Below are positions 2,976 through 31,215 of a stretch of DNA of 40,482 nucleotides, one piece after another. Position 1 is the stretch's first letter. Every line of letters begins with the position of its first letter. Source of the DNA: a bacterium (GTDB taxonomy: Bacteria; CLD3; SB21); NCBI GenBank assembly GCA_008933615.1, contig WBUR01000038.1, positions 1-40,482 on the forward strand. Direction: 5' to 3'. The position numbers and the translations under genes are program-made. The notes beneath the pieces are model-generated. The model worked only from the letters and a program-made list of their open reading frames with translations. It made no database searches and was not told the origin of the DNA.

Positions 2976-4214
2976 TCACTGTTCTACCGGCAATGAAATA
3001 ATGAACTCTGTACCTTCCCCAATCTCGCTTTGTACTGCAATCTTGCCGTTATGCTTTTCTATAATCCCCTGGCATATCGCCAAACCAAGGCCGGTTCCTT
3101 CATCTTCCGATTTGGTTGTAAAACCTAATTCAAAGATCTTTTCCAAATCGCCTTTTGGAATTCCTTTTCCATTATCTTTGATCGAAATGTTAGCCATGCC
3201 GTTGTCCATCCATGTCTTGATCCAAATTCCTCCATTGGACTCTATTGACTGCGCAGAATTGTGGATGAGATTTACCAAAACCTGTGTGAGTGGCCCCGGA
3301 AGACCTTTAATTGGAGATATTAGTTTTAGTTCTTTGTGAAATTCGATATTAAATTTGTACTTTGCTTGTACCAAATGAATCGCACGGTCGATCTGATCCT
3401 TTAAGCTGACATCAGCCCATTGAATATCATCTAAACGCGAAAACCCCCTTAGATCTTTGATGATCTCTGAAGCAAAGGAGGAAGAATTTTTTATTGTATG
3501 AATGATCGCCTCAAAGTCTTCTACGGATTGTACAATGTTTTTTTCCTGGATAAATAACTTGATGTCGGTAATGTCGGTTATGGATTCGGCATCAAGAATG
3601 TTTGAAAATAATTCTTTCAATTCGGCCCATTCGTGGTCGGCCAGCGATGCCGCGTGCCGTATATTGGCAACGGGATTGCCTAACTCATGCGCAACACCGC
3701 TCATCAATTTGCCTAGTAAAGACATTTTCTCGCTTCGAATTAAACGCTGTTGCGTCATCTCCAGTTCTCGATATGCTTTTTCAAAAGCTTTCTTATGATG
3801 ATAATGTTCGGCGGCGCGCCGAATGGTTATCCGTAATCCTTCGATCTCAAATGGCTTTAAGATGAATTTATAAATGTGACCGCGGTTAATTGACTCCATC
3901 AGAAGTTCCACATCCGAATAGGCCGAAACGATAATTCGAATCGCATCGGGTATGACCTTTTGCGATTCTGCTAAAAAATCATTGCCGCTCATTCCGCCCA
4001 TTTTCTGATCGGATAAGATCACGACGATTCCGGGATTGGCATTCAAAACTTCCAATCCCTCCTTTCCGCTCTGCGCAGTCAACACGTCAAAATCGTCTGA
4101 AAGGCCGCGCTCCATTACATTTAAGATAGCAGACTCGTCATCCACACACAGGATTTTAGCGCGTTCTGCTCTAGAATTATTGTTATCGTGTTTAAGGTCT
4201 AATTTTTTCAGCAT
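2976..4214 (-). CDS. Receiver-histidine kinase (N-terminal receiver hybrid)
   Basis: 412-residue soluble protein. The receiver domain spans about residues 19-138 (D25/D26, phospho-acceptor D69 in LSDQKMGGMSG, conserved Lys in FILKPFE). A helical linker (AFEKAYRELEMTQQRLIRSEKM) leads to a HisKA-like segment with H176 in VAHELGNPV, then HATPase_c with DNGKGIPKG and GTGLGLAICQG. The receiver resembles those in the RpfG/HupR-like group (ILCVDDE, SDQKM). There is no transmembrane or PAS input domain, so the input is probably phosphotransfer to the receiver or a protein partner. It follows lon by 50 bp on the same strand and precedes the CMD gene by 119 bp. Co-transcription with hsp20-lon is plausible because no terminator is visible between them. 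Confidence 0.92.
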   Translation of the reverse strand: MLKKLDLKHDNNNSRAERAKILCVDDESAILNVMERGLSDDFDVLTAQSGKEGLEVLNANPGIVVILSDQKMGGMSGNDFLAESQKVIPDAIRIIVSAYSDVELLMESINRGHIYKFILKPFEIEGLRITIRRAAEHYHHKKAFEKAYRELEMTQQRLIRSEKMSLLGKLMSGVAHELGNPVANIRHAASLADHEWAELKELFSNILDAESITDITDIKLFIQEKNIVQSVEDFEAIIHTIKNSSSFASEIIKDLRGFSRLDDIQWADVSLKDQIDRAIHLVQAKYKFNIEFHKELKLISPIKGLPGPLTQVLVNLIHNSAQSIESNGGIWIKTWMDNGMANISIKDNGKGIPKGDLEKIFELGFTTKSEDEGTGLGLAICQGIIEKHNGKIAVQSEIGEGTEFIISLPVEQ

Positions 4215-4264: not shown

Positions 4265-6745
4265 TTAGGGAAGTTCTGTGTTTTTAGCAGAGCTTTTTGC
4301 TGCAGGATCGGATACAATGCGTGATTTCTTATACCGTACTTTTCCATTGTCTAATGTCTTTTTGTTCTTTCTAACGCCATTGTATCTCACCGGCTTATTT
4401 AACAATGCATGTTTTAAAACCTCATCAATGTGTTCGACATAGATAAACTGCAGCGACTTTTTGACGTAATCCGGCACGTCTTCAAGATCATTTTTATTCA
4501 TTTTGGGCATGATCACCGTGTTAATACCTGCTCTCCGCGCCGCGACAACCTTCTCCCGAATGCCTCCGACAGCTAAAACTTTGCCCCGCAGAGTGATCTC
4601 ACCAGTCATGGCTACGTTATGTTTTACAGGCCGCCCCGTCATCAGCGACGTGAGGCATGTCACGATAGTTACTCCTGCGGAAGGCCCGTCTTTTGGAGTA
4701 GCCCCCGAAGGAATATGAATGTGAATGTCCATCTTATTAAAAACTGACGGATTGATGTGTAGAATGCTCGCTTTTGAACGAATGTATGACAGACCTGCCT
4801 GAGCGGATTCTTTCATTACTTCACCCAATTGCCCGGTTAGTTGCAATCCTCGATTTCCCTGCATCAGGCGCGCTTCAATAAATAGAATTTCACCGCCGTT
4901 TTGTGTCCATGCTAGGCCTGTAGCAACGCCAATTTCATTTTCCCGATGCGCCATTTCAGGAAATATTTTCTGCGGGCCGAGATAATCGATTATGTCGCCG
5001 ATCTTAATTACGGCCTTGGATTTACCGCCCTCTGCCTTTTTGCGTGCCACTTTACGGCATATGTTTGCAATTTCGCGTTCAAGATTTCTGACGCCAGACT
5101 CCCAGGTATACGACGCAATGACCTGTAAAATCGAATCGTCATTAAAATTTATGTCCTTAGGTTTTAGACCGTTCTCCTTGATCTGGCGCGGAACAATATA
5201 TTTTTTTGCAATCTCGAGTTTATCCTCTGCGATATAACCCGACAAACGAATCACTTCCATACGGTCGAGCAATGCCGGTGGAATAGGCGAAAGATCGTTG
5301 GCCGTCGCGATAAACATCACATTTGAAAGATCAAACGGTATGTCTACATAATGATCAGTAAACGTATTATTCTGTTCCGGATCAAGAACTTCAAGCAACG
5401 CCGAAGCCGGATCCCCCCGAAAATCCTGACCGATCTTATCAATTTCATCCAACATAAACACCGGGTTGCTGCTTTGAGCTCGCCGCAATTCCTGTAATAT
5501 TTTCCCGGGGAGCGCACCTATATACGTTCGTCGATGCCCGCGGATTTCTGCTTCGTCTTTGACCCCGCCGAGGCTGAATCTTACGAATCTCCGGCCAATC
5601 GCTTTAGCAATCGACTTCCCTAACGATGTCTTACCCACTCCGGGCGGGCCGAGAAAACAAAGTATTGGACTCTTGCTGTCCTTGCGCAATTTCCGTACAG
5701 CTAGAAACTCTAAAATGCGGTTCTTTACATCTTCAAGATCATAATGATCGTCATCAAGAATTTTTTTCGCACGAACAATGTTAATCTGGTCTTTTGTTTT
5801 TGTCTGCCATGGTAATTCCAGAATCCAGTCAATGTAAGTCTTGCTCACGGTATATTCGGCAGATGAAGGCGACATCTGTGCCAGACGCTCCAGTTCTTTT
5901 CCGGCGATTTTTTTTGCCTCTTTTGGCATTTTTCTTTTTGCGATCTTTTTTCCCAATTCTTCTATCTCGACAGAGTCGTCGTCGTCATCACCGAGTTCGT
6001 GCCTAATGGCTTTGATCTGTTCTCTCAAAAAATAGTCGCGTTGAGTTTTACTCAATTCGGCATTCACCTCAGTTTGAATTTTATCATTCAGCTCCAGAAG
6101 TTGAATTTCCTTATTGATTGCCGTCATTACCTTGGTCAGCCGGTTTTTGACTCCAAATTCTTCAAGTATACTCTGCTTTTCTTGGACATCGATATTTAGA
6201 CTAGATGCCACCATATCCGCCATTCGATCCGGTTCCTTGATGTTACCGATGATGACCTTTAGTTCATCAGGCAGTACGGGCGATAAGGTAACCATTTTTT
6301 GAAAACTTTCGGAAACGCCTCGCGTGAGGGCTTCTATCTCCATATTCTGTTCAAATCGAATATCAACAGGTTTTACTGAACCCATTAAATACGGACGTTG
6401 TTGAGTGATGCCGTGGAGTTGTACGCGTAAAAACCCTTGAATTAAAAGGCGTATGCTCCCATCCGGAACCTGGAACATCTTTAAGACATTGGCTACCGTG
6501 CCGACGGGGTACATATCCTCCCTGGAAGGAAATTCTTTTTCAGAGTTCTTCTGTAAAAAAACACCGATAAGTTTAGAACTGATCAAAGCATCGTTGACCA
6601 ATTGGACCAGATGTTTCTCTATCACTACTAGCGGAAAAACCACAAATGGGAAAATCACATTATCACGCAAGGGCAGGATGGGTAATATTTCCGGAACAAT
6701 AAGCTCTCCGCTTTTTTCAGAAGTTATCATTGTAATATCAGACAT
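4265..6745 (-). CDS. lon: ATP-dependent endopeptidase Lon (La)
   Basis: 826 residues, close to the usual length for bacterial LonA. The N-terminal substrate-binding domain starts at about residue 18 (PILPLRDNVIFPF). AAA+ module: Walker A GPPGVGKTS near residue 364, Walker B VFMLDEIDKIG, arginine-containing sensor region near LLDRMEVIRLSGY. The C-terminal protease domain has the catalytic serine in KDGPSAGVT near residue 687 and the catalytic lysine in EKVVAARRAG about 45 residues later. Lon degrades misfolded and short-lived regulatory proteins in the cytoplasm. The last 45 or so residues form a basic, probably disordered tail (lysine-rich, ending in SSAKNTELP). It sits 51 bp downstream of hsp20, which fits a heat or protein-damage stress unit, and upstream of signalling genes. 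The start ATG has only a weak ribosome-binding site. Confidence 0.98.
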   Translation of the reverse strand: MSDITMITSEKSGELIVPEILPILPLRDNVIFPFVVFPLVVIEKHLVQLVNDALISSKLIGVFLQKNSEKEFPSREDMYPVGTVANVLKMFQVPDGSIRLLIQGFLRVQLHGITQQRPYLMGSVKPVDIRFEQNMEIEALTRGVSESFQKMVTLSPVLPDELKVIIGNIKEPDRMADMVASSLNIDVQEKQSILEEFGVKNRLTKVMTAINKEIQLLELNDKIQTEVNAELSKTQRDYFLREQIKAIRHELGDDDDDSVEIEELGKKIAKRKMPKEAKKIAGKELERLAQMSPSSAEYTVSKTYIDWILELPWQTKTKDQINIVRAKKILDDDHYDLEDVKNRILEFLAVRKLRKDSKSPILCFLGPPGVGKTSLGKSIAKAIGRRFVRFSLGGVKDEAEIRGHRRTYIGALPGKILQELRRAQSSNPVFMLDEIDKIGQDFRGDPASALLEVLDPEQNNTFTDHYVDIPFDLSNVMFIATANDLSPIPPALLDRMEVIRLSGYIAEDKLEIAKKYIVPRQIKENGLKPKDINFNDDSILQVIASYTWESGVRNLEREIANICRKVARKKAEGGKSKAVIKIGDIIDYLGPQKIFPEMAHRENEIGVATGLAWTQNGGEILFIEARLMQGNRGLQLTGQLGEVMKESAQAGLSYIRSKASILHINPSVFNKMDIHIHIPSGATPKDGPSAGVTIVTCLTSLMTGRPVKHNVAMTGEITLRGKVLAVGGIREKVVAARRAGINTVIMPKMNKNDLEDVPDYVKKSLQFIYVEHIDEVLKHALLNKPVRYNGVRKNKKTLDNGKVRYKKSRIVSDPAAKSSAKNTELP

Positions 6746-6796
6746 AATTTCGTTATCGCTTTGGGGTTACTTTTCAGATACCTGACACCATGTAGG

Positions 6797-7249
6797 TTAT
6801 TCGATTATGATATTAGTCACTCTGGACGTATTTGTATCTTTTTTTAATTTAATAATGAGAAATCCGTTATCATACAGCGCTTTAATAGAATTATCCACGA
6901 TACGGGCTTTGATTTTAATCCTCCGTTCAAAAGGACCAAAATCAATTTCCATTTTGTGGTAATGACGTTTTTGGTTTATGCTGAGTTCCTTTCGCAAGCC
7001 GGAAACGGTCAAAATGCCTGCTTCATATGTTAGTTTTATGTCATCCTGTTTCACATTAGCAACATCCATTACCACCATAAATTCCTCGTCCGTTTCAATG
7101 ACGTCCGTAGGCGGATGCCATCGTTTCTCCGCGCTGATCAAAATTGGATATTTTGAATTAAAAAAATTAGAAAAAAGAAATTCCATTTCGTCATCAATGC
7201 CGCGAAACCGGTGCGTTGGTGTTTTTTGATCGTCATCCATTTCTTCCAT
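6797..7249 (-). CDS. Small heat-shock protein, Hsp20/alpha-crystallin family
   Basis: 150 residues. The alpha-crystallin domain runs from about residue 40 to 145: PTDVIETDEEFMVVMDVANV, then the beta strands ILTVSGLRK and GPFERRIKI, and a C-terminal ALYDNGFLIIKLKK. Hsp20 proteins are ATP-independent holdases that bind unfolding proteins and form oligomers. The usual C-terminal I-x-I anchoring motif is present as TNIIIE. The start at 7249 follows a strong AAGGAGAGA site. It is the first gene of the minus-strand stress cluster, 51 bp before lon. No CIRCE (HrcA) inverted repeat is visible upstream, so repression by HrcA is not supported. Confidence 0.96.
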   Translation of the reverse strand: MEEMDDDQKTPTHRFRGIDDEMEFLFSNFFNSKYPILISAEKRWHPPTDVIETDEEFMVVMDVANVKQDDIKLTYEAGILTVSGLRKELSINQKRHYHKMEIDFGPFERRIKIKARIVDNSIKALYDNGFLIIKLKKDTNTSRVTNIIIE

Positions 7250-7410: not shown

Positions 7411-7506
7411 TAGTAGATATTGTTCTTTGCCACAGAAAAAAAAGACAACCTTATTCATCTAAACTCATAAAATACAGTTATTTGCTAAACTAAATATGAG
7501 GTGTTG

Positions 7507-8580
7507 ATGGTTATTGATACAAAAAAAAGCCTCCCATTGTTCTTTAAAATATTTTTGCTCTTGTTTGTCTCATTCCTTTTGAATTCACATGTTTTTGCTC
7601 AACTTCGTATGGAATTGAATTTCGGGGAGGAGAACAACTATATTTTATTTGATAACGCCTACAATTCCCCAGATCCAAGTAAAACCCGGTTGAGTGAGTT
7701 GTTTCAAAATGGAGATTTTGAAGTTTCAGGTCTTACGGAGCGCAGTCCCTCCGGTGATAATTTTTTGGTTCTCAATGGGATAAATTATTTCCTGAAGACT
7801 CCGGGAAACGCCAATATTAATCTAAACGGACATGTCTCCTATTCCGTATCAATGTGGATTTATCTGTATTCATCCGGAATCAATGGAGAGATCATTAATG
7901 CAGATAACGGTTTTGTTTCAGGTTACCGCTTATTTTTAGAGAACAACGTACCTAAATTAGAGATTCGTGAAGGAATACAGGAAATTTTCTCTTCTGAAAA
8001 AACTCTTCCTTCCTCCCAATGGACGCATATCGGCTTCTACTGTGACGGTGTCAATGACAGCGTCACATTTTTTGTTGATGGTAATATTGCAAGCGAATCG
8101 GCGTTCACTAAAATCACACAGGTTAATACCGGCGCTAACAGTTACATAGGCGCGGCCGTCCGGTCAAGCCCTCCAAATTTTCTGAAAGCCAATTTGGATC
8201 AAATTCGCTTTTTTGCAGGACGAGATACTATTTTTGATTACGTCCAACATCTGCAGATCGCGTCAAAATCAAAATCACGAAAAAATAAGCCGGACATACC
8301 GCAATATTTCACGTTATTACAGAACTACCCAAACCCTTTTAATGCGTCAACCAAAATTTCGTTTATCCTTGAAAAAAGCGGATACGTGGAACTTAAGATA
8401 TACGACTTGTTAGGAAATACGGTGCGCACCTTATACGACGGTGTAAAAGAGGAAGGAACACACGAACTGTATTGGGATGGTATGGATTTCAAATCCATCA
8501 CAGTGCCCAGCGGTATCTATTTTATGAGGTTGTCATTCAATGGGTCTGTACAGACCAAGAAAATGATTCTGGTCAAATAA
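7507..8580 (+). CDS. Secreted LamG-domain protein with T9SS type A sorting domain
   Basis: 357 residues from the ATG at 7507; GTG at 7501 and TTG at 7504 are also in frame, but GAGG at 7498-7501 is better spaced for the ATG. Signal peptide: a hydrophobic stretch FFKIFLLLFVSFLL ending at FAQ near residue 32. A concanavalin A-like/LamG jelly-roll fold covers about residues 85-240 (VSMWIYL, WTHIGFYCDG, VTFFVDG, SYIGAAV), a fold that commonly binds glycans or surface ligands. The last 90 residues are a T9SS sorting domain (LLQNYPNPFNAST ... PSGIYFMRLSF ... KKMILVK), normally cleaved or used for cell-surface anchoring after outer-membrane passage. It is a single-gene unit, divergent from hsp20. 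Its stop codon directly abuts the stop of the convergent OmpR-type regulator. Confidence 0.88.
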   Translation: MVIDTKKSLPLFFKIFLLLFVSFLLNSHVFAQLRMELNFGEENNYILFDNAYNSPDPSKTRLSELFQNGDFEVSGLTERSPSGDNFLVLNGINYFLKTPGNANINLNGHVSYSVSMWIYLYSSGINGEIINADNGFVSGYRLFLENNVPKLEIREGIQEIFSSEKTLPSSQWTHIGFYCDGVNDSVTFFVDGNIASESAFTKITQVNTGANSYIGAAVRSSPPNFLKANLDQIRFFAGRDTIFDYVQHLQIASKSKSRKNKPDIPQYFTLLQNYPNPFNASTKISFILEKSGYVELKIYDLLGNTVRTLYDGVKEEGTHELYWDGMDFKSITVPSGIYFMRLSFNGSVQTKKMILVK

Positions 8581-9267
8581 TCACCTCGACACAAACTTGT
8601 ACCCCACCCCGTGTATCGATAATATGTACTTCGGTTCTTTTGGATTTAACTCAAAATAATTTCTTAATTTAACAATAAAATTATCGATCGTACGTGTCGA
8701 GGGAATGGTATCATAGCCCCAAACCTTGGTCAATATTTCTTCGCGCGTTACCACTTGTCCTTCCTTCTCGATGAGCAGCTTTAGTAACATGCATTCCTTT
8801 TTTGTCAGACGTATGGTTTCGTTGTCTACCACCGCTTCGTAATTTTCAAAGTTGATGGTATTCGAACCAAAACTGTATTGTACGACCTCATCCGCCAAAC
8901 TCTTCTGACCTCTGCGTACAAGCGCCTTCACACGCAACAAGAACTCATCCAAACTGAACGGTTTTCCAAGATAATCGTCCGCCCCTAACTTTAGCCCCTC
9001 AATACGGTCTTTTTCTTCATGTTTTGCAGTAAGAAAAAGAATCGGTGTTTCCTTGTCCTTTTTTCGTATTGAGTTGCATACTTCGTAACCGCTTAGTTTT
9101 GGCAGCATCACATCCAAAACTATCAATTGATACATATTACTCTGATACTTTAAAAGAGCTTCTTCACCGGTTTTAGCCCAGACAACTACAAAATCACTTT
9201 CAAGATTAAAAATCAGAGATTCAGCTATATTTTTTTCATCTTCGACTAACAGTATTTTTTGTTTCAT
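8581..9267 (-). CDS. Response regulator, OmpR/PhoB family
   Basis: 228 residues. The receiver domain has D10, phospho-acceptor D52 (LIVLDVMLPKLSG), the conserved Thr in ILFLTAKHEE and Lys in LGKPFSLDEF. The C-terminal winged-helix domain shows the expected pattern: IRLTKKECMLLKLL, REEILTKVWGYD, STRTIDNFIVKLRNYFE, ILSIHGVGYKF. It binds DNA as a dimer after phosphorylation. It is the last gene of a three-gene operon, 16 bp after the sensor kinase, which is its obvious partner. No binding-site repeat upstream of the operon was recognised. The stop codon lies directly against that of the convergent LamG gene, with no intergenic base. Confidence 0.97.
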   Translation of the reverse strand: MKQKILLVEDEKNIAESLIFNLESDFVVVWAKTGEEALLKYQSNMYQLIVLDVMLPKLSGYEVCNSIRKKDKETPILFLTAKHEEKDRIEGLKLGADDYLGKPFSLDEFLLRVKALVRRGQKSLADEVVQYSFGSNTINFENYEAVVDNETIRLTKKECMLLKLLIEKEGQVVTREEILTKVWGYDTIPSTRTIDNFIVKLRNYFELNPKEPKYILSIHGVGYKFVSR

Positions 9268-9283
9268 AAATCCGATTATGTTG

Positions 9284-10627
9284 TTAATGATTAATCAAAA
9301 GAGGTATTCGAATCTGGAATTGAGCGCCAACGCCGGATTCAGGAAGATTTACGAAAATCTTACCTTGATGCGCTTCGGTTATTTTCTTGACGAGATACAA
9401 GCCAATGCCGGTACCTTTGGTGTTCCGTGTTAGTTCATTCCCCGCCCGATAGAATCGATCAAAAATATACGTCAGATCCTCCTTATCGATACCCGGGCCG
9501 TTGTCTTCAATTTCGAAGATCATGTCCTTATTGTCATGATATAATTTGATTAAAATACGTTTAGGAGTGACCGAATATTTGACCGCATTCTCAATTAAAT
9601 TATTGAAAACCGAAAGTAAAGCATGATGGTCGCCCATCACTGCGATTTTCTCATCGAGCGTTGCCGTCATATCAATTTCTTCATCTTCCGCATACGATTT
9701 TATTTTTTTAATACAAGGATTTAATATGTTAAAAACTACAAGAGGTTGCATTTCAAAATGGAATTCGCCCCTCTCAAGACGGGCTGCTTCCAAAACATTT
9801 TCTACCAATCGCTCAAGCCGTTCTACATCATACAACGAATGTTCAAAAAACTGTTTTTGTTTATCTGCCGGGACCGGCCTTGACAAAAGCGTTTGCAAAT
9901 ATAGTTTTATTGACGCCAGAGGCGACTTCAGTTCATGAGTAATACTGAGAATAAAATTTTTTTGCTGTGATTCTAGTCTAATCTCTTTTTTAAGAATAAC
10001 AAACATAAAATATACGCCCAGAAGGACCATCAATGAAAAGAAGATGCCTTCCGAAATGAACATGATGGTTTTGCGTTCCGTTTTGTCGATAAGTTCATTT
10101 AGAAATTCCGTTTTAGGTCGAATTAGAATCGGCAATTTAAGGACTCGTGAGGGCCCAAAACTATAAACTGCCTTGAGGTCTGTGCGGGGCAGTTGTTCTA
10201 CCGTCAAATCAGGATGACGGCTGGACATCCATTTATTCAATTCTCCGTAGACAATTGTTGAGGCGACTATCGTTCCGTCCGTATCTTTATAGAAAACGGT
10301 ATCGCTGACGCAATAAAACGTACTATAATATTGATTTCCAACGAGTATCTCCGGAACAGACTCAAGCGGCCGCGACCCAATAGTTTCGCGGTGAACCTCC
10401 ATATTGTGAATCACGACCTGCTCATATTCGCGATTCAGCTCATTAACCGCCTTCTGCACGCGTACTGATAAGACCGCCTGATGTAATTGAAATAAAACGG
10501 TATTCTGCTGAACCTGATAATATATCCACCAGAATATCTGCGCTAAGCAAATGACGACAATCACCGTAAAAATAATGACCGGAATACGGTCAACAAATTT
10601 AGTTTTATTAGATTGCTTGAAAGACAT
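9284..10627 (-). CDS. Membrane sensor histidine kinase of the J-domain operon
   Basis: 447 residues. First membrane span at about residues 14-36 (VIIFTVIVVICLAQIFWW), an extracytoplasmic sensor region of roughly 150 residues with no recognised fold, second span at about 188-212 (SLMVLLGVYFMFVILKK). HisKA carries H231 in ILSITHELKSPLASIKL; HATPase_c has NLIENAVKYS, DNGPGIDKED and GTGIGLYLVKK. There is no HAMP or PAS domain between the second span and HisKA, so the signal passes directly. It starts 12 bp after the beta-helix/J-domain gene and ends 16 bp before the OmpR-type regulator. The tight spacing argues that the beta-helix/J protein acts in the same signalling route. Confidence 0.95.
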   Translation of the reverse strand: MSFKQSNKTKFVDRIPVIIFTVIVVICLAQIFWWIYYQVQQNTVLFQLHQAVLSVRVQKAVNELNREYEQVVIHNMEVHRETIGSRPLESVPEILVGNQYYSTFYCVSDTVFYKDTDGTIVASTIVYGELNKWMSSRHPDLTVEQLPRTDLKAVYSFGPSRVLKLPILIRPKTEFLNELIDKTERKTIMFISEGIFFSLMVLLGVYFMFVILKKEIRLESQQKNFILSITHELKSPLASIKLYLQTLLSRPVPADKQKQFFEHSLYDVERLERLVENVLEAARLERGEFHFEMQPLVVFNILNPCIKKIKSYAEDEEIDMTATLDEKIAVMGDHHALLSVFNNLIENAVKYSVTPKRILIKLYHDNKDMIFEIEDNGPGIDKEDLTYIFDRFYRAGNELTRNTKGTGIGLYLVKKITEAHQGKIFVNLPESGVGAQFQIRIPLLINH

Positions 10628-10639
10628 TACAATTCCATT

Positions 10640-13072
10640 TCATTGATTAGGTTTACCTGCAATAAGTATCTCATAGGCTTCTTTAATCTCTCTGAATCGT
10701 TCATCCCCGGCAATACCTAATTCTCCGGACGTATTCATATCTGGATGATAGATCATACTGAGCTTTCGGTAAACCGATTTGATTTGTTCCAATGTGGCGT
10801 CCTCTTTTACACCGAGTATTTCATAGTAATTTTTTTTACGTTTTGGGCGGGAAACGGGATCAAACTCGTCGCCCAGGCGCAGGGCTTCACTTACAAATTC
10901 TTTGATCTGCAATATCTGGTGCGTGATTTCCTCGATCTGTATCTGTCCATTGTTAAAACCATTTTTTAATATTTCTAATTCAGCTTTGAAATCTATTACC
11001 GCAATAATGATATCCGCACTGGTGTTGCTGGTTAGCGCCTCGATAATCAGTTTTTCCGTTTCATCGATCAAACATAGTACTTTATCATCTTTTTCAGCCT
11101 GCAGCTGTTCGTGCAACTTCTTTAGCGATGATTGTATATCTTCGGCAATTTCTTTGGCAAGAACAAACTGTTTATGAATCAATGCATCCTGGGCGCGCTC
11201 AAGATAGAATGAAAACTCTTTTATTTCATCTTCAAATCTTTCGGCTATTTCACTGTGGGCTTGTCTTTGCATCTCCACTTCGGCATTTGACAATGCCAGA
11301 TGCGCGTCCTTGCGAATTTGTTTAAATTTTTCAGCTTCGTCTCTGGCGCGTACAGCATGGCGCGCTGCTTCATTGCATAGCGCCTCACAGCTATCAAACT
11401 GGTTAGTTGCAAATGCCTGTTTAGCTTCATTCAATTTCACGACTGCATCGGTAAAATATTCGTTCGCATATTTTTCCGCATCGGAAGCCCGGGCCAATTC
11501 TACCTGTTCCTCCGAGTCGTTTAACCACCATAATACCTGTCTTTTTATTTCACCTGTTTGAATACGTTTTTTCCACCAGAGCCCGAAAACAAAAACACCG
11601 ATGAGTCCAAAGCTGAACATAAAAAGGGTCTTCAATTGGCTTAGCTGGGCTTCATCGTCAATTAAAGCCTTGAGTTCCAGAATCTCTGAATTGTCGGGAT
11701 CGTATTTTAAAGCCGCTGTCAGGTAGTTATCAGCAACGCGAAAATTACCCGCATCATAATCCATTTTTGCGCTCTGAAGATAGTTTCGCGCCATTTCAGA
11801 ACCGGCTTTTTTGAATAATGTTTTCCCTTCCGTATCACTCTTGTCAATTGAAAGTATTTCTTGAGCTGACTGATATGCCAAATACCAATTCTCACGCGCA
11901 AGATCTTTCGTTGCCTGTGTTTTAAGGTAATCTAATCTTCTTTTTTTTTCGATCCTCGTATTGTCATAATGAGCTCCGATCGAAACGTCATCCTCGCCCT
12001 TTCGATAAAGTTGAGACGAAGTAGCGATCTTAAAATTCTGTTCGTCCGGATTCAGAAAAAAAGGATCTACATTCATGTCGGTCGAATGGGCAAAAACACC
12101 TATATAATTAGAATCATTGTTCCACAAATTATTTTTTAACAATTCAATACTTTTACTTTCTTTAACACCAATTCCGAATACATTTAATGCGCATATATTA
12201 TTTATCAGCGATATGGCGGACGTATTTCGTATTAAAATGCCATAACCTGAAACAAAATTGTCAGCTGCTGACTTGTCTGCGACTCCTGTTCCGTTCTTTA
12301 CGATGGTATTATTCCGAACTAAGGGACTGGCATTATTGTCGATCATAATACCGTTTTTTTTGTTTTGGTATATATAATTACCCAGCACTTTGTTTGTAGA
12401 ATTTGTAGTGACGGTAATCCCATTACCCCCATTTTCTTTAATTATGTTTTTTTCAATAGTTGGCGAAGCATTGGTACCAATGAATATTCCATCCGACTGA
12501 TTTTCAGATATAACGCAGTCAATGATATACCCATGGCTTTTTTCCATGACGACAATGCCATTTCTTATGTTTCCTCTAAAACTGGACTGGCGTATGTTGA
12601 CCGAACTGCTGCTGAGTATTTCAATTCCGTTTCCGCCGTTCATAAACGAACAATTTTCAATAAAAAATGTCGAATACTTTGAATACAGTAACGGCCGATT
12701 TGCCGGTTTAGAAAATGTTACCGACATATTTGCAATTTTCCCGCCGCCAAGGTTATAAGCTTCTATCACAGATGTGCTCCCATCTGTCTGTATTATGGTC
12801 TTGCCTATTCCATCTCCGTCCAGATTCACAAAATTTTTCAGTAAGATTTTTTCATTGTATACACCGGCTTTGATCTTAATCGTGGCATTAAATTCAGCTT
12901 GATCTATGGCTTGCTGAATGGACGTATATTTTCCGCTTCCATCCAGAGCGACCGTTGCGTATTTTTGTCTGTCTGCCTTTTTGGAACCGCGGCGAACTTG
13001 CGCAAAGCTCAGGTTCTGAAGATGGAAAATGAATAGCAATAAAAGAAAGAAGTATAGTTTTATTTTTTGCAT
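10640..13072 (-). CDS. Membrane protein: extracytoplasmic beta-helix, TPR-like region, one membrane span, cytoplasmic J-domain
   Basis: 810 residues with an unusual order of parts. A signal peptide (LYFFLLLLFIFHLQNLSFAQ) covers residues 6-25. Residues 40-100 resemble the start of pectate-lyase/pectinesterase-type helices (GSGKYTSIQQAIDQA, IKAGVYNEKI). Residues 100-345 are right-handed parallel beta-helix rungs of the NosD/CASH type (repeats such as SPTIEKNIIKENGGNGI and SPLVRNNTIVKNG). Residues 370-470 contain TPR-like helices (AKMDYDAGNFRVADNYL). A single span lies at about 479-498, followed by WWKKRIQTGEIKRQ, so by the positive-inside rule the C-terminus is cytoplasmic. About 200 residues of charged helix follow, then a J-domain at about 745-808 (NYYEILGV, HPD near 776, EAYEIL). 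J-domains recruit DnaK. It leads an operon with a sensor kinase and regulator. The start has no clear Shine-Dalgarno. The role is unknown. Confidence 0.88.
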   Translation of the reverse strand: MQKIKLYFFLLLLFIFHLQNLSFAQVRRGSKKADRQKYATVALDGSGKYTSIQQAIDQAEFNATIKIKAGVYNEKILLKNFVNLDGDGIGKTIIQTDGSTSVIEAYNLGGGKIANMSVTFSKPANRPLLYSKYSTFFIENCSFMNGGNGIEILSSSSVNIRQSSFRGNIRNGIVVMEKSHGYIIDCVISENQSDGIFIGTNASPTIEKNIIKENGGNGITVTTNSTNKVLGNYIYQNKKNGIMIDNNASPLVRNNTIVKNGTGVADKSAADNFVSGYGILIRNTSAISLINNICALNVFGIGVKESKSIELLKNNLWNNDSNYIGVFAHSTDMNVDPFFLNPDEQNFKIATSSQLYRKGEDDVSIGAHYDNTRIEKKRRLDYLKTQATKDLARENWYLAYQSAQEILSIDKSDTEGKTLFKKAGSEMARNYLQSAKMDYDAGNFRVADNYLTAALKYDPDNSEILELKALIDDEAQLSQLKTLFMFSFGLIGVFVFGLWWKKRIQTGEIKRQVLWWLNDSEEQVELARASDAEKYANEYFTDAVVKLNEAKQAFATNQFDSCEALCNEAARHAVRARDEAEKFKQIRKDAHLALSNAEVEMQRQAHSEIAERFEDEIKEFSFYLERAQDALIHKQFVLAKEIAEDIQSSLKKLHEQLQAEKDDKVLCLIDETEKLIIEALTSNTSADIIIAVIDFKAELEILKNGFNNGQIQIEEITHQILQIKEFVSEALRLGDEFDPVSRPKRKKNYYEILGVKEDATLEQIKSVYRKLSMIYHPDMNTSGELGIAGDERFREIKEAYEILIAGKPNQ

Positions 13073-13157
13073 TTTATTTTAAATAAGCATGTAAACTGAA
13101 TGTATTCGATTTTAATATTTTTTGCACGGTTTTTGTTTAAAAAATCAAATGCATACT

Positions 13158-13190
13158 AAAAAACCTTGCCCGCACAAACGAACAAGGTTT
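13158..13190 (-). terminator. Rho-independent terminator after the polyferredoxin gene
   Basis: On the minus strand an 8-bp stem, AAACCTTG/CAAGGTTT (13183-13190 with 13161-13168), with a 14-nt loop is followed by a T run. It lies 27 bp after the stop of the 4Fe-4S membrane protein and would end transcription coming from the FAD oxidoreductase direction. This separates that unit from the beta-helix/J-domain operon. Confidence 0.7.
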
Positions 13191-13216
13191 CAGTCAACTC
13201 CTAATGATTTTCAATT

Positions 13217-14554
13217 CTATTGTATATTAAATCGTTTTTCTGAAGGGCCATTTTCGAGGTTCAGTACTCCACGCGGACAAACGGCCGAGCACACTCCGCA
13301 TCCGACGCACGAAGCACGGACAATATTTTCACCCCGTTGCGCATAGGCGCGGACATCTATTCCCATTTCGCAGTACGTAGAACAATTGCCGCAGGAAATA
13401 CATTGGCTGCCGTTTGTTGTGATTCGAAACCGAGAATAATATTTCTGTAGAATCCCAAGAATGGCGGCCATAGGACAACCAAAGCGACACCAGACGCGAC
13501 TTCCCATAATTGGGTAAAATCCTGTTCCTATGACTCCTGAGAAGACAGACCCAATTAGAAATCCATACCACGATGCAAAATTTCCGGATAAATTCCCTAG
13601 AATAGTTCCGCTAAAATATGAATTTAACCAAAGTAAGGACGTGGTTACAGTCACAAAAATCAAAACAGAATAGATCAAGATCCGTTCAATTTTCCACGCT
13701 CTTAAGGACTTGTCAGACAATTGCCGAAATGGATCGCCAAGCGTTTCGGCTAATCCTCCACACCCGCAGACCCAGGAACAATACCAGCGCTTTCCAAAAA
13801 AATAGGTCAGCACCGGAGTTGCGATGAAAGTCATAATAACACCCCAGAAAATCATAAAAATACCAAGCCCTCCCGGGTGAGCTAACAGATTCTGAAAGTC
13901 GCTTGGCCACAGTGAATAAGGTCGAAGCGGCCAAAAATAGGTAAAATAGAAACCGGGCTGGTTTAACAATTCAAGCAATGAGGGGATAATAAACGCAAAA
14001 CCCAATTGAAAGAACATAACCGAGGAAGTCCGAAGAATCTGATAACGACTATGGCGGTATTTTACGATCATTCGGGTTCCCATAATGAGAACGGCCAGCG
14101 TATAGAAAGTCCCATACAAAAACCATTGATCCGCTGTTTTACCACGCAGGATAAGGCTGAGAGGGTCAACCAACCTAATCCAGTTCGAAATCAGATGAGG
14201 GAACCAGTACAACACGATATAAAAGCCGGTAAAGAGAATGCCAATTATCCACGCAATTGCGCCTCGTGACATTGCCGAACTGAAAAAAATATTATTATTT
14301 CTGATTCCGGCTGGAGATTTTTTGAGCTGCGGGACTATGTACATAAGTCCACCGACGACAGAGAAACCGAAGCTAAGAAAAAAGAATAATGCTGGATTTG
14401 CATTTGAAGCGCCCGTCAAACATACAAATAACATCAACAGACCAAAACCAAAAACTCCCAGTCCTGCCTTCATTGTTACGTTCATATCCTGATGAACGTT
14501 TTGAGATAAAGACATGGATATATCCGCAGATCCGTTCATCGACACGTGTTGCAC
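13217..14554 (-). CDS. Polytopic 4Fe-4S membrane protein, NapH/NosR/CcoG-like
   Basis: 445 residues with about eight membrane spans in the first 330 residues. Two cysteine motifs lie on the membrane side: WYCSWVCGCGG and VWCRFGCPM, as in the NapH/NosR C-terminal family. Two ferredoxin-type clusters follow at the C-terminus: CISCGNCSTYC near residue 383 and CVGCGVCSAVCP near 414. Family members pass electrons between quinol, flavin or ferredoxin donors and periplasmic or membrane redox partners. It lies 56 bp after the FAD oxidoreductase on the same strand and ends before a clear terminator, so the two probably form one electron-transfer unit with the flavoprotein as donor or acceptor. The first 25 residues are an unusual Met/Ser/Asn-rich tail, and a later start is possible. 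The terminal electron acceptor is not visible here. Confidence 0.88.
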   Translation of the reverse strand: MQHVSMNGSADISMSLSQNVHQDMNVTMKAGLGVFGFGLLMLFVCLTGASNANPALFFFLSFGFSVVGGLMYIVPQLKKSPAGIRNNNIFFSSAMSRGAIAWIIGILFTGFYIVLYWFPHLISNWIRLVDPLSLILRGKTADQWFLYGTFYTLAVLIMGTRMIVKYRHSRYQILRTSSVMFFQLGFAFIIPSLLELLNQPGFYFTYFWPLRPYSLWPSDFQNLLAHPGGLGIFMIFWGVIMTFIATPVLTYFFGKRWYCSWVCGCGGLAETLGDPFRQLSDKSLRAWKIERILIYSVLIFVTVTTSLLWLNSYFSGTILGNLSGNFASWYGFLIGSVFSGVIGTGFYPIMGSRVWCRFGCPMAAILGILQKYYSRFRITTNGSQCISCGNCSTYCEMGIDVRAYAQRGENIVRASCVGCGVCSAVCPRGVLNLENGPSEKRFNIQ

Positions 14555-14610
14555 ATGATCTCCTTACATATAATTTGAATCATAGTGGCGTTATATCAAA
14601 TGGGTATCCA

Positions 14611-15942
14611 TTAGACCGCAAAGCTGGCTAGGCCGCGCCTTTTCTTAAGCGTTATGGGCTTCTGTGGATTTTGTTCATTAAACAATTCGACAATATTCTC
14701 TTCAAACTGCATAAAAAATTCAGGATCAAAATTAGCCTCACCTAAATTCTCCAATACATATTCGAGAGGCTTTTTTTCGCGTATCCAATGTTCACATACA
14801 TTCTGACGAAATCGAATACCAAAAAGATTAAACCCAATTACCGAATAATCATTGGTAGAATAAACGATCCGAATCGCATGTTTCCCTGCCGGATGCTGCC
14901 AATATAATGACTGCTCACCTTCAATCGGTACATTGCTGACAAATCCATACGTCTGGTATTCAATATCAAAGAATTTTGCGGAATTGAACCATATACCTCT
15001 TTCATAAGGCGTTCTTTCTCCGCAAACGGTTTTGGCGAGCGCCTCACCATGCATTCTCCCTGTATACCATAATTGCTCGATCTTGGGGTGACGCGGCTTT
15101 GGAGCCCTGAATTCAACACAATCCCCGGCTGCATAGACATTGCTTATATTAGTCTCCAGAAATTCATTTACAAGAACCCCGCGATTCGTTTCAATTTTTG
15201 AATTCTTTACAACATCAATATTTGGAGAAACCCCCGCAGTCAAGCCAACAAACTGGCATGAAATTTCCTCATCTCGGCTGGTGATAACTGAGTTAACTCG
15301 TCCGTTATCGCCAGGCACAATTTTTTTTAATTCGGTAGACAGGCGTAAATCTATTCCGTGTTCAACAATATGATTCCCGATAAGCAACGCTTCTTCTTTG
15401 GGTAAAATGTTATCCCAATAAAATGTTTCGCGGACCAAAAAAGTAACAGGAATTTTTCTGCTATTCAGCATTTCCGCCATTTCGATACCTATGAGCCCGC
15501 CACCAACGATAACCGCGCGACTAATATCTTTAGTATTACGTTCCATGAGATCTAAATCAGGCTTAGAATACAGGCCTTGCACCGCTTCTAGGTCCTGTCC
15601 AGGCCAGCCGAACTTATTGCTTTTTGAGCCTGATGCAATTACAAGCGTGTCATATTGAATCAACTGTCCATCATTTAATTTAAGCCTCTGCTCATCGGTG
15701 TTGATAGACTCTACAAAACCCTTTATAAGGGTTAAATTATTCTTAGCCCAGAACCAATCCTCATAAGGCTTTGTATGTTCATATTTCATGTGGCCCATAT
15801 AAATATACATAAGAGCTGTACGAGAAAAAAAATGCTCCGTTTCTCCAGAAATGATAGTTATTTTCGTGTCCGATCTTTTACGAACATTTCTGGCAGTTGT
15901 AATACCGGCAATACCATTACCGATGATAACTAAATGTGACAT
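14611..15942 (-). CDS. FAD-dependent pyridine-nucleotide oxidoreductase (NirB/rubredoxin-reductase-like)
   Basis: 443 residues with the two dinucleotide folds of this superfamily. An FAD-binding GNGIAGITTA lies at the N-terminus, TLVIASGSKS near residue 100, an NAD(P)-binding VGGGLIGIEMAE near residue 155, and the second FAD motif VYAAGDCVEF near 275. The active-site disulfide C-x4-C of glutathione- or lipoamide-type reductases is absent, so it belongs with the single-electron-partner group (nitrite, rubredoxin or ferredoxin reductases). The C-terminal 150 residues do not match a domain I can name. It is followed after 56 bp by the polyferredoxin-like membrane protein, suggesting NAD(P)H-to-iron-sulphur electron transfer at the membrane. 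It begins 70 bp after the stop of the bS21 gene. Confidence 0.9.
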   Translation of the reverse strand: MSHLVIIGNGIAGITTARNVRKRSDTKITIISGETEHFFSRTALMYIYMGHMKYEHTKPYEDWFWAKNNLTLIKGFVESINTDEQRLKLNDGQLIQYDTLVIASGSKSNKFGWPGQDLEAVQGLYSKPDLDLMERNTKDISRAVIVGGGLIGIEMAEMLNSRKIPVTFLVRETFYWDNILPKEEALLIGNHIVEHGIDLRLSTELKKIVPGDNGRVNSVITSRDEEISCQFVGLTAGVSPNIDVVKNSKIETNRGVLVNEFLETNISNVYAAGDCVEFRAPKPRHPKIEQLWYTGRMHGEALAKTVCGERTPYERGIWFNSAKFFDIEYQTYGFVSNVPIEGEQSLYWQHPAGKHAIRIVYSTNDYSVIGFNLFGIRFRQNVCEHWIREKKPLEYVLENLGEANFDPEFFMQFEENIVELFNEQNPQKPITLKKRRGLASFAV

Positions 15943-21941: not shown

Positions 21942-24900
21942 CTATTTGAGCATGATCATCTTGCGGGTCTGCGTGAATTTATCTTTACCGTCAGCTGAAA
22001 CGGCCGTTAATCGATAAATGTAGATACCGCTGGCAACCGATTGATTGTATTTATTCAATCCGTTCCATACCGCTTGTTGGAACCCGGCATCCATACGGCG
22101 ATCAACTAACGTCACGACTTCCTGCCCGAGAATATTATACACCTTCAGAGATACTTTTGCCGACACGGGTAATCTGAATTTGATTGTCGTTTCAGGATTA
22201 AACGGATTCGGCGCGTTGGGCTCTAAGGTAAATTTATTCGGTAATTCCACCGTGACGGTCACGTCATTGTGGTATGTAACGCTTCCATCAAAAGCAACGT
22301 CTGCCAGCCGGTAGAGATAGGTCTTACCTAATTCTACAGAATAATCAATCTCACTGTAATCCGTAGCCGAACTAGTTGAGCCTTGGCCTTCAACCGTCAT
22401 AATGGATTGGAATGCTTGATTCTTACTGAGATCGGCTGAAACCTCTTTTCGTTCTATAAACCAGTAGGCATTGTCAAGTTCACTCTCTGTTCTCCACACG
22501 AGCCGCACTTTGTTTTCATACGGAACTGCTTTGAACTTGCCGCTTAATAAGACCGGCACACTATTGTCCGGACTTAGCGTTCCATAAGCATAATAGGTTC
22601 CTGTTCCGGAAGAATTTGTAAACAGAATGTTAGCATTACCGCCTGAATCACGCCCGGCAGGAGATATCGTTTGGTAACCGGCACCAACAAGTGTGGTCCA
22701 GTTTAAACTATCTGCTGAACGCATCACCCGGATGCTGTCCGGCTTACTTACACCTTCAATATCACCACCGATACCAACATTCGTTTTTATACTTATGCGT
22801 ACTGTATCGGACGTAGCATTAAAAACCAACCCGCTATCAATTGAGATTCGATAAAAGCGAGCAGTCGATATGGCATTGATATCAGCGGGTTTAGATGAAA
22901 CTGTCACGCCCCTGGGTATGATCTCGACCCGAACTCTTGTTCTTGAAGCAGCTGTTGAACCCGTAACTCTCACCGGTCGATAGAAACTTCCGTTTCCAAC
23001 TTCGAAATTTCTTCCAACATTATTAGTCGAAGCCGGGAACGTGATAGCCATTTTGCCGTCAACATAGGACGTTGAATCGCCCCCTGATATCGGAGTAATG
23101 GCGCTATTCATTAATCGCATGATATTGTTTCCCATGCGAATGATTCCCTTAGTGAGGGTCAACGTACGAGTAAGTTGTAAGCTATCGTTAGTTCCGGTAA
23201 CAACCACTTTCGCTCCGGCAGCCGTCCTATTAATTGAAAAATCTCTAAACGATCTGGCCACGGCGCCGCTGGCAAATCTTAGCGTATCGTTAACCGTTGT
23301 GCCGCTCATACTGAGATCAGTCGAGTCGGATGACGTGATCGTGCCGGTACCGCCCGGATAAGTTATATTTCCTCCTAAGACCCACCGATTTCCTCGTCCC
23401 AACGACAAATTATTTCCAGCATTAATTGTCAGTACATTCTGGACGGTATCCAATTGCTGAAATACCCCCGGCGTTCCGCTGTAAATAAACGAAACACCGG
23501 CACTGTTGTTGATAGTTAGATTGTAGAAACTGGCAGTGCCGCCCGCAGCAGTGGCTCTTGTAATTCGCTGCAAAGAGGAACCGTTAAATGTAACCGTGTT
23601 CGTACCCAGCGTGAGGAGGCTTCTTGTATTATGCACTAGATGGAGGTGCCCGCCAAGTGTAATATTATAATTGCTCAGACCGGTATACAGATTATTAAAA
23701 TCGCCAATAGCCAAAGAATCTCTTACATTAATATTTCCTGCCAGAGTTCTTGTTCGTGTTGCTGCCGTCGCAAGAAACTGAAGTCGACCGTAATTGTATC
23801 CATTCAGCGCGCTGACAGTCGTTGTGCCATTAAAATCATATAGAGCTTTGCTCGTCGTATTAAGATCATATACATTATAACTAGCCGGGAAATTAGCTGC
23901 ACCAGAAACACGCAAAACCGTTCCTGCCGCCATGGTCAGCGAATCTCCCACACCGCCGTTGTGGTTTGCTGTAAATGTGCCCATACTTACCTGGCCGCCT
24001 AAGATTCTCATCGTGCCGTTAACCGTGATATTCGCCCCGATCGTCTTTGTCGTGTTGTTTGCAAATACCACATCATTAAAAGTTGTCGTTTGCCCATTAG
24101 GTATCGTATAGTTCGATGAACCGGCAAAAATAACTGTTCCACTGTCTTTCGCAACAAAAGTTGTGTACGTTCCGGTTGGCAACACCGGTGTTGCCGATGT
24201 GTTATCAAGTATAATGGTACCAACTCCGGATACATTTCCAAAGTCATTGGTAGCTGTATTCTGAATAAGAACGGTTCCTGCTCCAGGTGTAGATCCTCCA
24301 TACTGGTCAAACGTTACAGCCAAGACCGTTCGGCCCGACAGGCCAGTCGGAATTGTAACCGTTTTACTGTCTCCGATTACCACAGGGGTTTGGCCATTCG
24401 GTAGAAATAACGCAGTCGGACCTCCATAGCTCCCGGTGGCCCATGTGGTCAGGGTTTGCCAATTACCGTTGGCTCTGCTATAAAATACAGTCGGAGTACC
24501 ATAAGCCGCATCCTCGCCTGCCGTGTACTCTGCCGCTATTACTGCTGAATCCGGATTAAAAATCGTGATGCTGTCGCCCGCAGTGCTAATACTGGATGTC
24601 GGCTTTGTCCATGTAAATGGAATAAAATAGCCGCCAATATAGCTGGCTTCGGTCCCTAAAGGAGTAATGCCGGAACCGTAAACATAATAATGTTGCGCAG
24701 CCGCATCAGCAGCAAGACCGGTCTTGGTAACTTTCCAATAATAAGGCAAAGCAATAGAACCATCAGCCAAGTTCGGATGCGCTGAATTCACCGGTATAAC
24801 TGTTATGGTGCCCGCGGCCGGAGTTGTTCCCGCATTGGTAATTCGAATCGTTGCCGGAGTGTAATTGGCTCCCGTTCCTACAGGAAATCTGAAACCATGC

Positions 24901-27900
24901 GTGCTTGCCGGATAAGCTTTAGTCACACCCAAATCGCCCACCAGGCCGCCCGTTTGAATCATTCGCGTAGCACCAAAGGCTCCTTGAATGGCCGCAACAT
25001 CCGTCTCATTTAGAACGAGTGAATTAGCTCCGATAGCCAAAACCCCGTTCGACAGTGTCAAAACGCTGTCAACGGTCAAGACACCTGAGGCTAATGTGAT
25101 ATTACCAAATGTATTATCCAGCGTTAGATTATTAAATATCGTCGATCCGGTTATACTTTGCGCTACAGTCGTACTTGCAAATGTCACGAGACGTTTATTG
25201 GTGATCGCATCAAATTTTCCTGCCGTCATCGTCCAATTACCTGCGACGGTCAAATCCGTGCTTGCGCCTAACATAACAGTATCGCTTGGCGACGAAGTAT
25301 TATTGATAGTGACATTATTAAAAGTTGATGTTCCGGTAATGGTCTGTTTACCGGCATTACCGTCAAAAACAACCGTTGTTGTACCGGTGCCAACTCCAGT
25401 CGAGAATGTCCCGGAAGTACGTGTGAAATTCCCACCAATTAGGAAATCGCGGTTAGCTGCGCCGCCGCCATTCGCAGTACGGAATGTCCCGCCAATATTC
25501 AATGTAAAATTATTACGAATGTCAATTCGGTCATCTAATGATACATTGCCCGTAAATCCAGCGCATGGGCCAACTGTCAGGTTGTACATCCTGACGGTGT
25601 CAACTGCTCCTGCGGCGCTCATCAAATAATTATTGGCCGTTACCAAGCTCGGATCAAGAAGGTGAATCGTGCCTCCACTGATCCTTTGAACAGCCAATGC
25701 CCCAATATCAATAATAGCCTGATTATTAACAGCTCTTCGCAAAGCAAGGACCCCGCCTGACATCTGAAAAACGCTCGCCGCATTACTTGCGACTTGAAAT
25801 GTCGCGCCCGCAGCAACGGTAGTGTATCGCCCAACAATAACAGAATCACCGGACTGAATGTAAGAGAATATAGTTCCTGTTGCAGGCCTTAAGGCTCCGG
25901 ATACACGCAGAACTCCCGTCCCGATCACTTCAACGCCCGCAGCGGTGGAATCATAAAAGATAGAACTCGATATGGAAGTGCTCGTTCCGATGTTTAACGA
26001 CCCTGCAGATATCTTTAATTGGCCTTTAAGATTTAAATTATCACCGGTTCCGCTTAGCTGTGCTGACCCGCCTGCAATCCATAATCTTGTTCCGCCCAGA
26101 ATCGGGAAATCTCCGCCACCGGTACTAAGGTCAAGAATCGGGCTTGTACCCTGGCTCGTTAGTTTAAATGTGCCTCTTAACAGACGCAGTGGTTTGTCTG
26201 TGCCGCCGGCAGAGCCAGAAATGGTAAACCTATTGATATTAACGTCCAATATGTTGGATGTGTCGGCTGAAACGCCAGTGCCTTTATTAACGATAAGAGT
26301 TTCAAAATCGGTTGTGTCGGCTGTCGTGCCTGAAATAGATGCGCTTGAGTTTCCAGTAAACGTAACATTTGCAAACCTGCCGCCAGCGACACTCATATCA
26401 AATATCCCATTATTAACGAGATTACCACTGACTGTCACGCCGTTTGCAACAACGGTCCCCGCAGCAGTCACCACAAACTTGGCGCCGGAATTAATCGTAA
26501 CATTGCCGCCTACTGTAACTCCACGCGCATTGCCGTTTTGAAATCGCAAAACATCTCCAGATCCTTCTAATAATAGATTACCTGAAACTGAAAAACTACC
26601 ATTCACTCCGGCGGAAGATAAAAGAACGGTAGTACCGCCGGTAATTGTAATGTTTCCTGATGGTATTACGTTTACATTTGGACCAGTCTTAACACCACCT
26701 CCCGAAAAAACAAGGTTCCTGTAAATACTAATAAGACCTGAAATCGTGTAAGATCCAGCTCCCCCATATTCCACAGTCCCGCCCGAAGAACCCAAAAACG
26801 ACGTATAAGTCCCACTTGGAAAATTCCCGCTTTCTAAAGTAATCTTCCCATTCCCGGTCACGGTTCCGAAGTTGTTTCCTGTGGTTGCTAATACATTGAC
26901 CACGCCGGAGTCAACCAAACTTGCACAACGTGTGTTACTATTGTCTACAGTTATTGAGTCGCCGGCTCGAATTTTGACCGGACTATTCGGTCCTGGAGCC
27001 GAAGTTGCAGCAGCGCCGCCATATCCCAAATTTGACCAAGTGGTGACTATCTCCCAGTGATCGCTTTGTCTGCTATAGTAAACCGTAACCAAACCAAAAG
27101 CGTCCGGTGCTCCTGAAATACTCGTTTGTCCCATGGTATAATTACCGTCAATTGCGTTGAGAAAAGTTCCATTGCCATTGAACGTAATTGTGTGTCCGGC
27201 CAATGAAACATTCGCTTGCGCCTCCGTAAACCAGGACGTCTCGGAAGCTACATATCTTCCCGGAACAAAATTTCTGAACGCATACGTCCCTGAATAAGTT
27301 GCCTCCAGCGTGTCTACATTTACCCAAGTATATGTATGAGTAGTTTGCGGGTTTAAGAATCCCGTGCTGGATACATTCCAAAAATAAACTAAGGCTGGAG
27401 CATAGGTGGGGGTATTTGTTTTTGTCGCCACAGTATCATCAACCGCTCTTATTGTAATAGCGCCGGCTAAACCTGTGGATGAAACATTTATAGCGGCCGG
27501 TGTATATTTACCTACTACGCCTATGGGCCAGGTGAAACTTGATGTGCCGGTGTAATATCTTGTCACGCCGCCTGCACCTAGAGATCCTGAAACCTGGATC
27601 ATTTTTGATGTTCCGGGGGACGACACGGAAACTACGCCATTCGAACCCGATGTGTTTGATCCGAGTTCAAGCGCTTTGTCTCCTACAACCAATTTACCCG
27701 CGCTTAATACCAGCGTGTCTAACCGAAGAGAGTCTCCAAGCATTTCTAAGCTGTCGGCTGAATTTATCAATAGCGCATTGATGATACCGCGCCCATTTCC
27801 GTAGATATTTGCAGATGAGCCATTTAAGATGATACGTCCGGTTCCTACCTTATGACCTGAAAAAGACGCATTCTTGCTGGCAGTGATGTTCGTTCCGTTT

Positions 27901-30884: not shown

Positions 30885-31215
30885 TTGAAAGTTCCTTCTG
30901 TTATTGGAATTTATTTTTTTCATATTTTTTTCGTGTTTGAATTTTTATGTGTTTGAACGCAAAATCGTATCCTCTCCGTGGCCGGTAACGATTTTATGTT
31001 GTGTTTCTAAGACCTAAATGTAATTACCAAAAAATGGGATAAATTGGTTTAATCGCCATTAAAATAATACTTTAGCCCCATGAAGTCAACAAAATTTATT
31101 AAGTAATTCAAAATGTTATACTTCACTGTTCTTAGGTTAATTTTACCCTAAAATGACAAAACGGTCAGTATTTCTGTGAGTATTTTTTGGAACAACGGTA
31201 TATTCGGCAGATGCC
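30885..31215. other. Intergenic region upstream of the giant T9SS gene
   Basis: About 330 bp of AT-rich DNA with no convincing coding frame. It contains one promoter-like site on the minus strand (annotated separately) and the Shine-Dalgarno AGAAGGAA close to the giant gene. The implied leader of roughly 170 nt is long. I see no riboswitch or strong hairpin in it. Confidence 0.6.
31061..31089 (-). promoter_or_regulatory. Candidate promoter of the 2980-aa T9SS protein gene
   Basis: Minus strand TTGACT (31084-31089), 17 bp, then TATTTT (31061-31066). The site lies about 180 bp upstream of the chosen start and is the best primary-sigma match in this intergenic region. Confidence 0.45.

Follow-up and report, generated by a model that had tools for sequence, protein, structure and literature searches.

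The DNA analysed here, referred to as the window, comprises 40,482 bp of a bacterial genome (contig WBUR01000038.1 of assembly GCA_008933615.1) and contains a three-gene operon on the reverse strand (Table 1). Its first gene encodes a membrane protein with a C-terminal J-domain, here called BHJ, and is followed by the genes of a histidine kinase (HisKA and HATPase domains in Pfam) and of a response regulator (REC and Trans_reg_C), with intergenic gaps of 12 and 16 bp. These three open reading frames, both gaps and the architecture of the 810-aa BHJ with its intact HPD motif had been proposed in a preliminary description made from the sequence alone, and all were confirmed by ORF, Pfam, hydropathy and AlphaFold2 (AF2) analyses.

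Table 1. Features of the BHJ operon and its conserved neighbours in the window
Feature	Position	Strand	Evidence
BHJ, 810-aa single-pass membrane J-domain protein	10640-13072	-	ORF, Pfam, hydropathy, AF2
BHJ, predicted periplasmic right-handed beta-helix, residues 38-324	12101-12961	-	Pfam Beta_helix/NosD, AF2, Foldseek to AlgE4/AlgG
BHJ, predicted periplasmic TPR-like helices, residues 367-475	11648-11974	-	AF2; 51% identity between genera
BHJ, single TM helix, residues ~478-501	11570-11641	-	Hydropathy; basic residues after
BHJ, cytoplasmic helical region, residues 502-740	10853-11569	-	AF2, pLDDT mostly 86-94
BHJ, J-domain, residues 746-806, HPD at 776-778	10655-10837	-	Pfam DnaJ; HPD in 7/7
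Histidine kinase, 447 aa, kin to hem-linked kinases; two TM helices, ~155-aa periplasmic sensor	9284-10627	-	
OmpR/PhoB-type response regulator, 228 aa, kin to hem-linked regulators	8581-9267	-	
Hairpin and T run, intrinsic-terminator-like, between NapH-like gene and BHJ	13140-13216	-	Fold -24.7 kcal/mol, z -5.0
LamG and T9SS-tail surface protein, convergent conserved neighbour	7501-8580	+	
NapH-like membrane polyferredoxin, conserved neighbour upstream of BHJ	13217-14554	-	
NAD(P)H-FAD oxidoreductase resembling the N-terminus of NirB, conserved, upstream of BHJ	14611-15942	-	

Architecture of BHJ

The N-terminal half of BHJ matches the Pfam models Beta_helix (2.2e-25, residues 134-267) and NosD (1.6e-18), and the C-terminal J-domain matches DnaJ (4.1e-19, residues 748-804) with 68.9 bits against a cut-off of 27.8. 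Hydropathy analysis revealed a signal peptide (residues 6-24) and one transmembrane (TM) segment (residues ~480-498) followed by the sequence WWKKR; a third hydrophobic stretch (675-693) falls within a region that was modelled as helical. From the signal peptide, the single TM segment and the basic residues behind it, we infer by the positive-inside rule that the beta-helix and the TPR-like helices are located outside the cytoplasm and the J-domain inside. The AF2 model, built with seven orthologues, contains the beta-helix, TPR-like helices, membrane helix and J-domain that had been claimed beforehand: the beta-helix (38-324) has a mean pLDDT of 83-97 across nearly its whole length and is followed by the helices 367-475, one unbroken helix spanning the membrane (462-529), a helical region up to residue 735, and the J-domain (746-806). 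The mean pLDDT of the whole model is 81 and its pTM is 0.43, hence the placement of the domains relative to each other is unsure. No client- or kinase-binding domain was recognised in BHJ. Homology of its cytoplasmic helices to the DnaK lid was considered and rejected, the match having just 26.6 bits without composition correction.

The top fold matches of the beta-helix in Foldseek were the alginate C5-epimerases AlgE4, AlgE6 and AlgG, followed by pectin methylesterases and lyases, and the BHJ sequence profile also matches AlgE4 and AlgG. These matches would agree with a membrane-tethered polysaccharide enzyme (an epimerase, lyase or esterase); such a function is, however, very improbable, as the epimerase motif Y-G-x-D-P-H and the pectinesterase motifs GTVDF/RPW are absent from all seven BHJ orthologues, and the Pfam Pectinesterase match (3.7e-8) is limited to the N-terminal residues 39-98. 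With the right-handed beta-helix proteins NosD, AlgG and AlgE4 the periplasmic half of BHJ shares the fold and the Pfam match, but it lacks the epimerase catalytic motif, stays far under the NCBIfam NosD cut-off (43.6 bits against 300, while scoring above the threshold of the wider NosD model in Pfam) and is fused to TPR-like helices, a TM helix and a J-domain. With such a fold but none of these motifs, the beta-helix probably serves for binding or as a scaffold. The suggestion that it senses a ligand and passes the signal across the membrane found no support, the known catalytic motifs being absent and no ligand nameable.

With a J-domain that scores above the Pfam cut-off and has an intact HPD, BHJ fits the J-proteins of the class C type, a group defined by a J-domain that lacks G/F and zinc regions. 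The genome from which the window originates encodes a single full-length DnaK and, besides BHJ, two other J-domain proteins, in frames of 388 and 308 aa, the 308-aa one being near dnaK.

Conservation of the operon and its neighbourhood

Nine genomes of the phylum were compared, seven of which (four genera) represent the family of the window and two a sister family. Full-length BHJ orthologues with 45-94% identity were found in all seven family genomes, each with the kinase and regulator genes directly behind it, with spacings of 2-15 bp between BHJ and the kinase, and from 16 bp down to an overlap (in three genomes) between the kinase and the regulator. This settles two of the points on which the preliminary description could have failed: the beta-helix and J-domain parts are not separate genes joined by an assembly error, since the same intact frame and gene order recur in seven assemblies, so that an assembly chimera is rejected; and the kinase and regulator are kept beside BHJ throughout the family, including two genomes with an altered wider neighbourhood.

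The dN/dS of BHJ is about 0.08 against its nearest orthologue. Between genera, conservation peaks in the J-domain (74% identity) and falls off through the juxtamembrane region (57%), the TPR-like helices (51%), the helices 601-735 (50%), the beta-helix (43%) and the TM helix (21%). Measured against the orthologue of genome G001, the beta-helix has a dN/dS of 0.13, the TPR-like part one of 0.04 and the J-domain one of 0; J-domain values lie at 0-0.01. Neither the HPD nor the helix II sequence around it (VYRKLSMIYHPD) varies among the seven orthologues.

The oxidoreductase and NapH-like genes (13217-15942, -), possibly a membrane redox module, are kept upstream of BHJ wherever the contig reaches, and the convergent LamG/T9SS orthologue, the stop codon of which abuts that of the regulator exactly in the window, is present in every family genome with a readable region. 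Two ends could not be judged: the G003 contig stops just upstream of BHJ, and the position of the LamG gene in G004 reads N (L041, ~5880-6970). In several family genomes, as in the window (4265-7249, -), the genes of Lon and Hsp20 lie side by side close to the operon. In G005 these two genes, located near the operon in other members, are not adjacent, and in G006 the contig is short and lacks them; in both, the FAD oxidoreductase, NapH-like protein, BHJ, kinase, regulator and convergent LamG/T9SS genes remain together. The window also encodes two proteins with receiver and histidine kinase domains near the operon (668-2185 and 2976-4214, both -), and a 2993-aa protein (21942-30923, -) with almost no Pfam match besides a weak FlgD_ig-type C-terminal tail.

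Because of the strong hairpin and T's (z -5.0) that separate it from the NapH-like gene, BHJ probably begins a separate transcript; similar inverted repeats precede BHJ in G001-G004. In the sister family, both genomes contain an orthologous kinase (305-319 bits with the kinase profile, against 152 or less for other kinases); in G008 it has an adjoining regulator and no BHJ alongside, and the contig of G007 begins within the kinase. Such a pair without BHJ, as well as the synteny that preserves much of the wider neighbourhood in the family, might mean that BHJ has an unrelated scaffolding or localising role and that its position reflects nothing but a shared promoter. This explanation appears improbable: the block and its very short spacings persist in G005 and G006, where Lon and Hsp20 are no longer adjacent, and the inverted repeat or terminator-like hairpin splits BHJ from the preceding gene in five genomes.

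Outside the family, a profile of the middle part of BHJ (TPR-like helices, TM and cytoplasmic helices) gave no full-length match in the two sister-family genomes or in 377 others, and its weak matches were short, consistent with TPR or coil similarity. The searches covered hundreds of genomes, and a protein combining a beta-helix and a J-domain with an unrelated middle part could escape them. Of the J-domain proteins in the long frames opened from other phyla (L119-L124), L120 is rich in repeats, and the others are either typical DnaJ or J-TPR proteins whose N-terminal domain is of a different kind; no beta-helix was seen by eye. Among the genomes searched, BHJ is restricted to the family of the window.

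Relation of the two-component pair to hem-linked systems

The two-component pair is more widespread than BHJ and independent of it, orthologous pairs without BHJ occurring in the sister family and in other phyla; in this respect the preliminary description is not supported as it stands. Haem-biosynthesis genes neighbour the pair in three genomes from other phyla: in G069 it is followed by one small gene and then hemE; in G117 it is flanked by hemE and hemL, with hemB, hemC/hemD and hemA farther out; and in G163 it has genes for cytochrome c assembly on one side and hemL/hemA on the other (the key genes of these neighbourhoods were checked by Pfam and the remainder named by eye from the sequence). 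No hem link was noticed, judging from protein starts, at the loci found with the kinase profile in G161, G013, G096, G157 and G059. The best match of the G117 kinase in the window's genome is the kinase of the BHJ operon (146 bits against 81 for the next one), and that of the G117 regulator is the regulator of the operon (163 against 113). In the kinase tree, the sister-family kinases join the G069 kinase (100/97), while the BHJ-linked kinases are left unresolved.

The pair thus appears by sequence to be a HemKR-like two-component system, Leptospira HemKR itself being likened by description, not by sequence. Leptospira HemKR controls haem metabolism, its regulator recognising TGACA-N6-TGACA upstream of the genes concerned (PMC11426443). 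The likeness consists in the window pair being the best genome match to a pair inside a hem cluster of another phylum. The differences are that the membrane and periplasmic parts of HemK lie within its first 80 aa (PMC11426443), as against ~215 in the window kinase, and that a J-protein is not described with HemKR, whereas the window pair has BHJ. The sensor between the TM helices measures ~145-170 aa in BHJ-linked kinases, ~90 aa in G008 and nearly nothing in G069, with G163, G117 and G059 having lengths near that of G008; in this small sample, a longer sensor goes with BHJ. It is the least conserved signalling part (27% identity between genera), so that a conserved contact between BHJ and this sensor is not favoured, and its AF2 model (pLDDT 81, moderate confidence) had no significant match in the PDB.

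In the window's genome the hem genes are located on a different contig from the BHJ operon. The hem-box consensus TGACA-N6-TGACA is found before hemA exactly in G003, with one mismatch in G008 and with two in G007; in G000, G005 and G006 the hemA upstream regions, that of the window's genome included, contain only degenerate forms overlapping a -35-like TTGACA. As a link to HemR-like control these sites are suggestive. An exact copy inside the frame of the 2993-aa protein (25056-25071, -) is probably due to chance, since the window shows no excess of near matches. Genome G004, rated 100% complete, possesses the BHJ operon, yet gave no match for hemA (PF05201) or hemE (PF01208); as its relatives carry hemA-hemC-hemD-hemE in one cluster, a single loss or a single assembly gap would account for both absences. 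If the loss is real, the system of this family serves more than haem synthesis.

BHJ being confined to the family and the pair more widespread, the simplest reading is that BHJ was gained in the family and added to an older HemKR-like circuit, which we regard as probable; its loss from the sister family, instead of a gain, is possible.

Possible role of BHJ

The nearest working analogue of BHJ is DjlA. The Escherichia coli protein likewise has a single TM helix, a C-terminal cytoplasmic J-domain with a further domain between them, and a link to a histidine kinase pathway, as it activates the Rcs phosphorelay in a manner that depends on its J-domain and TM helix and on DnaK and GrpE (PMC11709261). 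It differs from BHJ in its short periplasmic N-terminus (BHJ has ~450 predicted periplasmic residues), its TerB-like domain and in that its effect is seen when it is overproduced, while BHJ, unlike DjlA, is encoded within the operon of the kinase. Searching BHJ with Pfam at E 0.01 gave no match to a TerB-like domain, the NCBIfam DjlA model scored 23 bits, far below its cut-off of 162, and the TM helix of BHJ lies in the middle of the protein, after a signal peptide. BHJ may therefore work like DjlA, yet it is not classed as a member of the DjlA family. We know of no natural trigger of DjlA. TPR-like helices together with a C-terminal J-domain are also found in P58IPK/DNAJC3, a weak fold match of rank 20; this is mere resemblance, as the alignment has an rmsd above 30 A, and in BHJ the two parts are predicted to lie on opposite sides of the membrane.

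The explanation that we tentatively prefer is that BHJ is an inner-membrane co-chaperone joined to an older HemKR-like system, which would recruit DnaK either to the kinase itself or to one of the kinase's partners in the membrane. The J-domain, borne on the long cytoplasmic helical region, would stimulate the cell's DnaK at the membrane; the recruitment of DnaK to the kinase, or to its membrane partner, would change the state of the kinase; and the periplasmic half would decide when or where DnaK acts. We favour action through DnaK on the kinase because DjlA activates Rcs through DnaK, and the linkage of the operon in all seven genomes, the preservation of the block in G005 and G006, the conserved J-domain, the presence of one full-length DnaK next to three J-domain proteins in the genome, and the longer sensors accompanying BHJ also argue for it.

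Operon membership by itself is equally compatible with BHJ being a regulated output. Almost as probable as the preferred explanation is that BHJ, expressed together with the two-component pair, helps DnaK with proteins of the envelope or the cell surface, such as redox, haem or T9SS-exported ones, and does not act on the kinase, folding and targeting being common tasks of J-proteins. The DjlA of Caulobacter crescentus binds to AcrA as well as to outer-membrane proteins, and it reduces the aggregation of AcrA (PMC10754441). The conserved neighbours of BHJ, a LamG/T9SS surface protein and membrane redox proteins, and the related kinase-regulator pairs that exist elsewhere without BHJ would suit such an effector. 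On the other hand, BHJ leads the kinase operon instead of residing in a separate target operon, no hem-box or other regulator site could be recognised upstream of it in the window, and the handling of clients in the cytosol needs no large periplasmic half.

A more specific form of the preferred explanation, in which BHJ acts on the co-encoded kinase as a periplasm-gated recruiter of Hsp70, is unlikely as a whole. Here occupancy or strain of the beta-helix and TPR-like helices would alter how the J-domain steers DnaK onto the kinase. The proposal in the preliminary description that BHJ may report across the membrane is plausible as a hypothesis. Its statement that no such bacterial system had been described stands for the architecture, as no description of a beta-helix, TM helix and J-domain in one protein was found in the open-access literature, but not for the idea, which has a precedent in DjlA activating Rcs through DnaK (PMC11709261). 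What is new is the architecture of BHJ and the close linkage of its gene, in one operon, to a HemKR-like pair; the general notion that a J-protein in the membrane can influence two-component signalling was known already.

The DjlA/Rcs precedent demonstrates that phosphorelays can receive input from a J-protein in the membrane. Throughout the family, BHJ with its large periplasmic half is encoded together with a candidate kinase, and orthologous kinases free of BHJ allow comparison, so that Hsp70 as an input of a two-component system becomes directly testable. If BHJ is a periplasm-gated recruiter, a HemKR-like circuit would have gained a chaperone-based input in this family.
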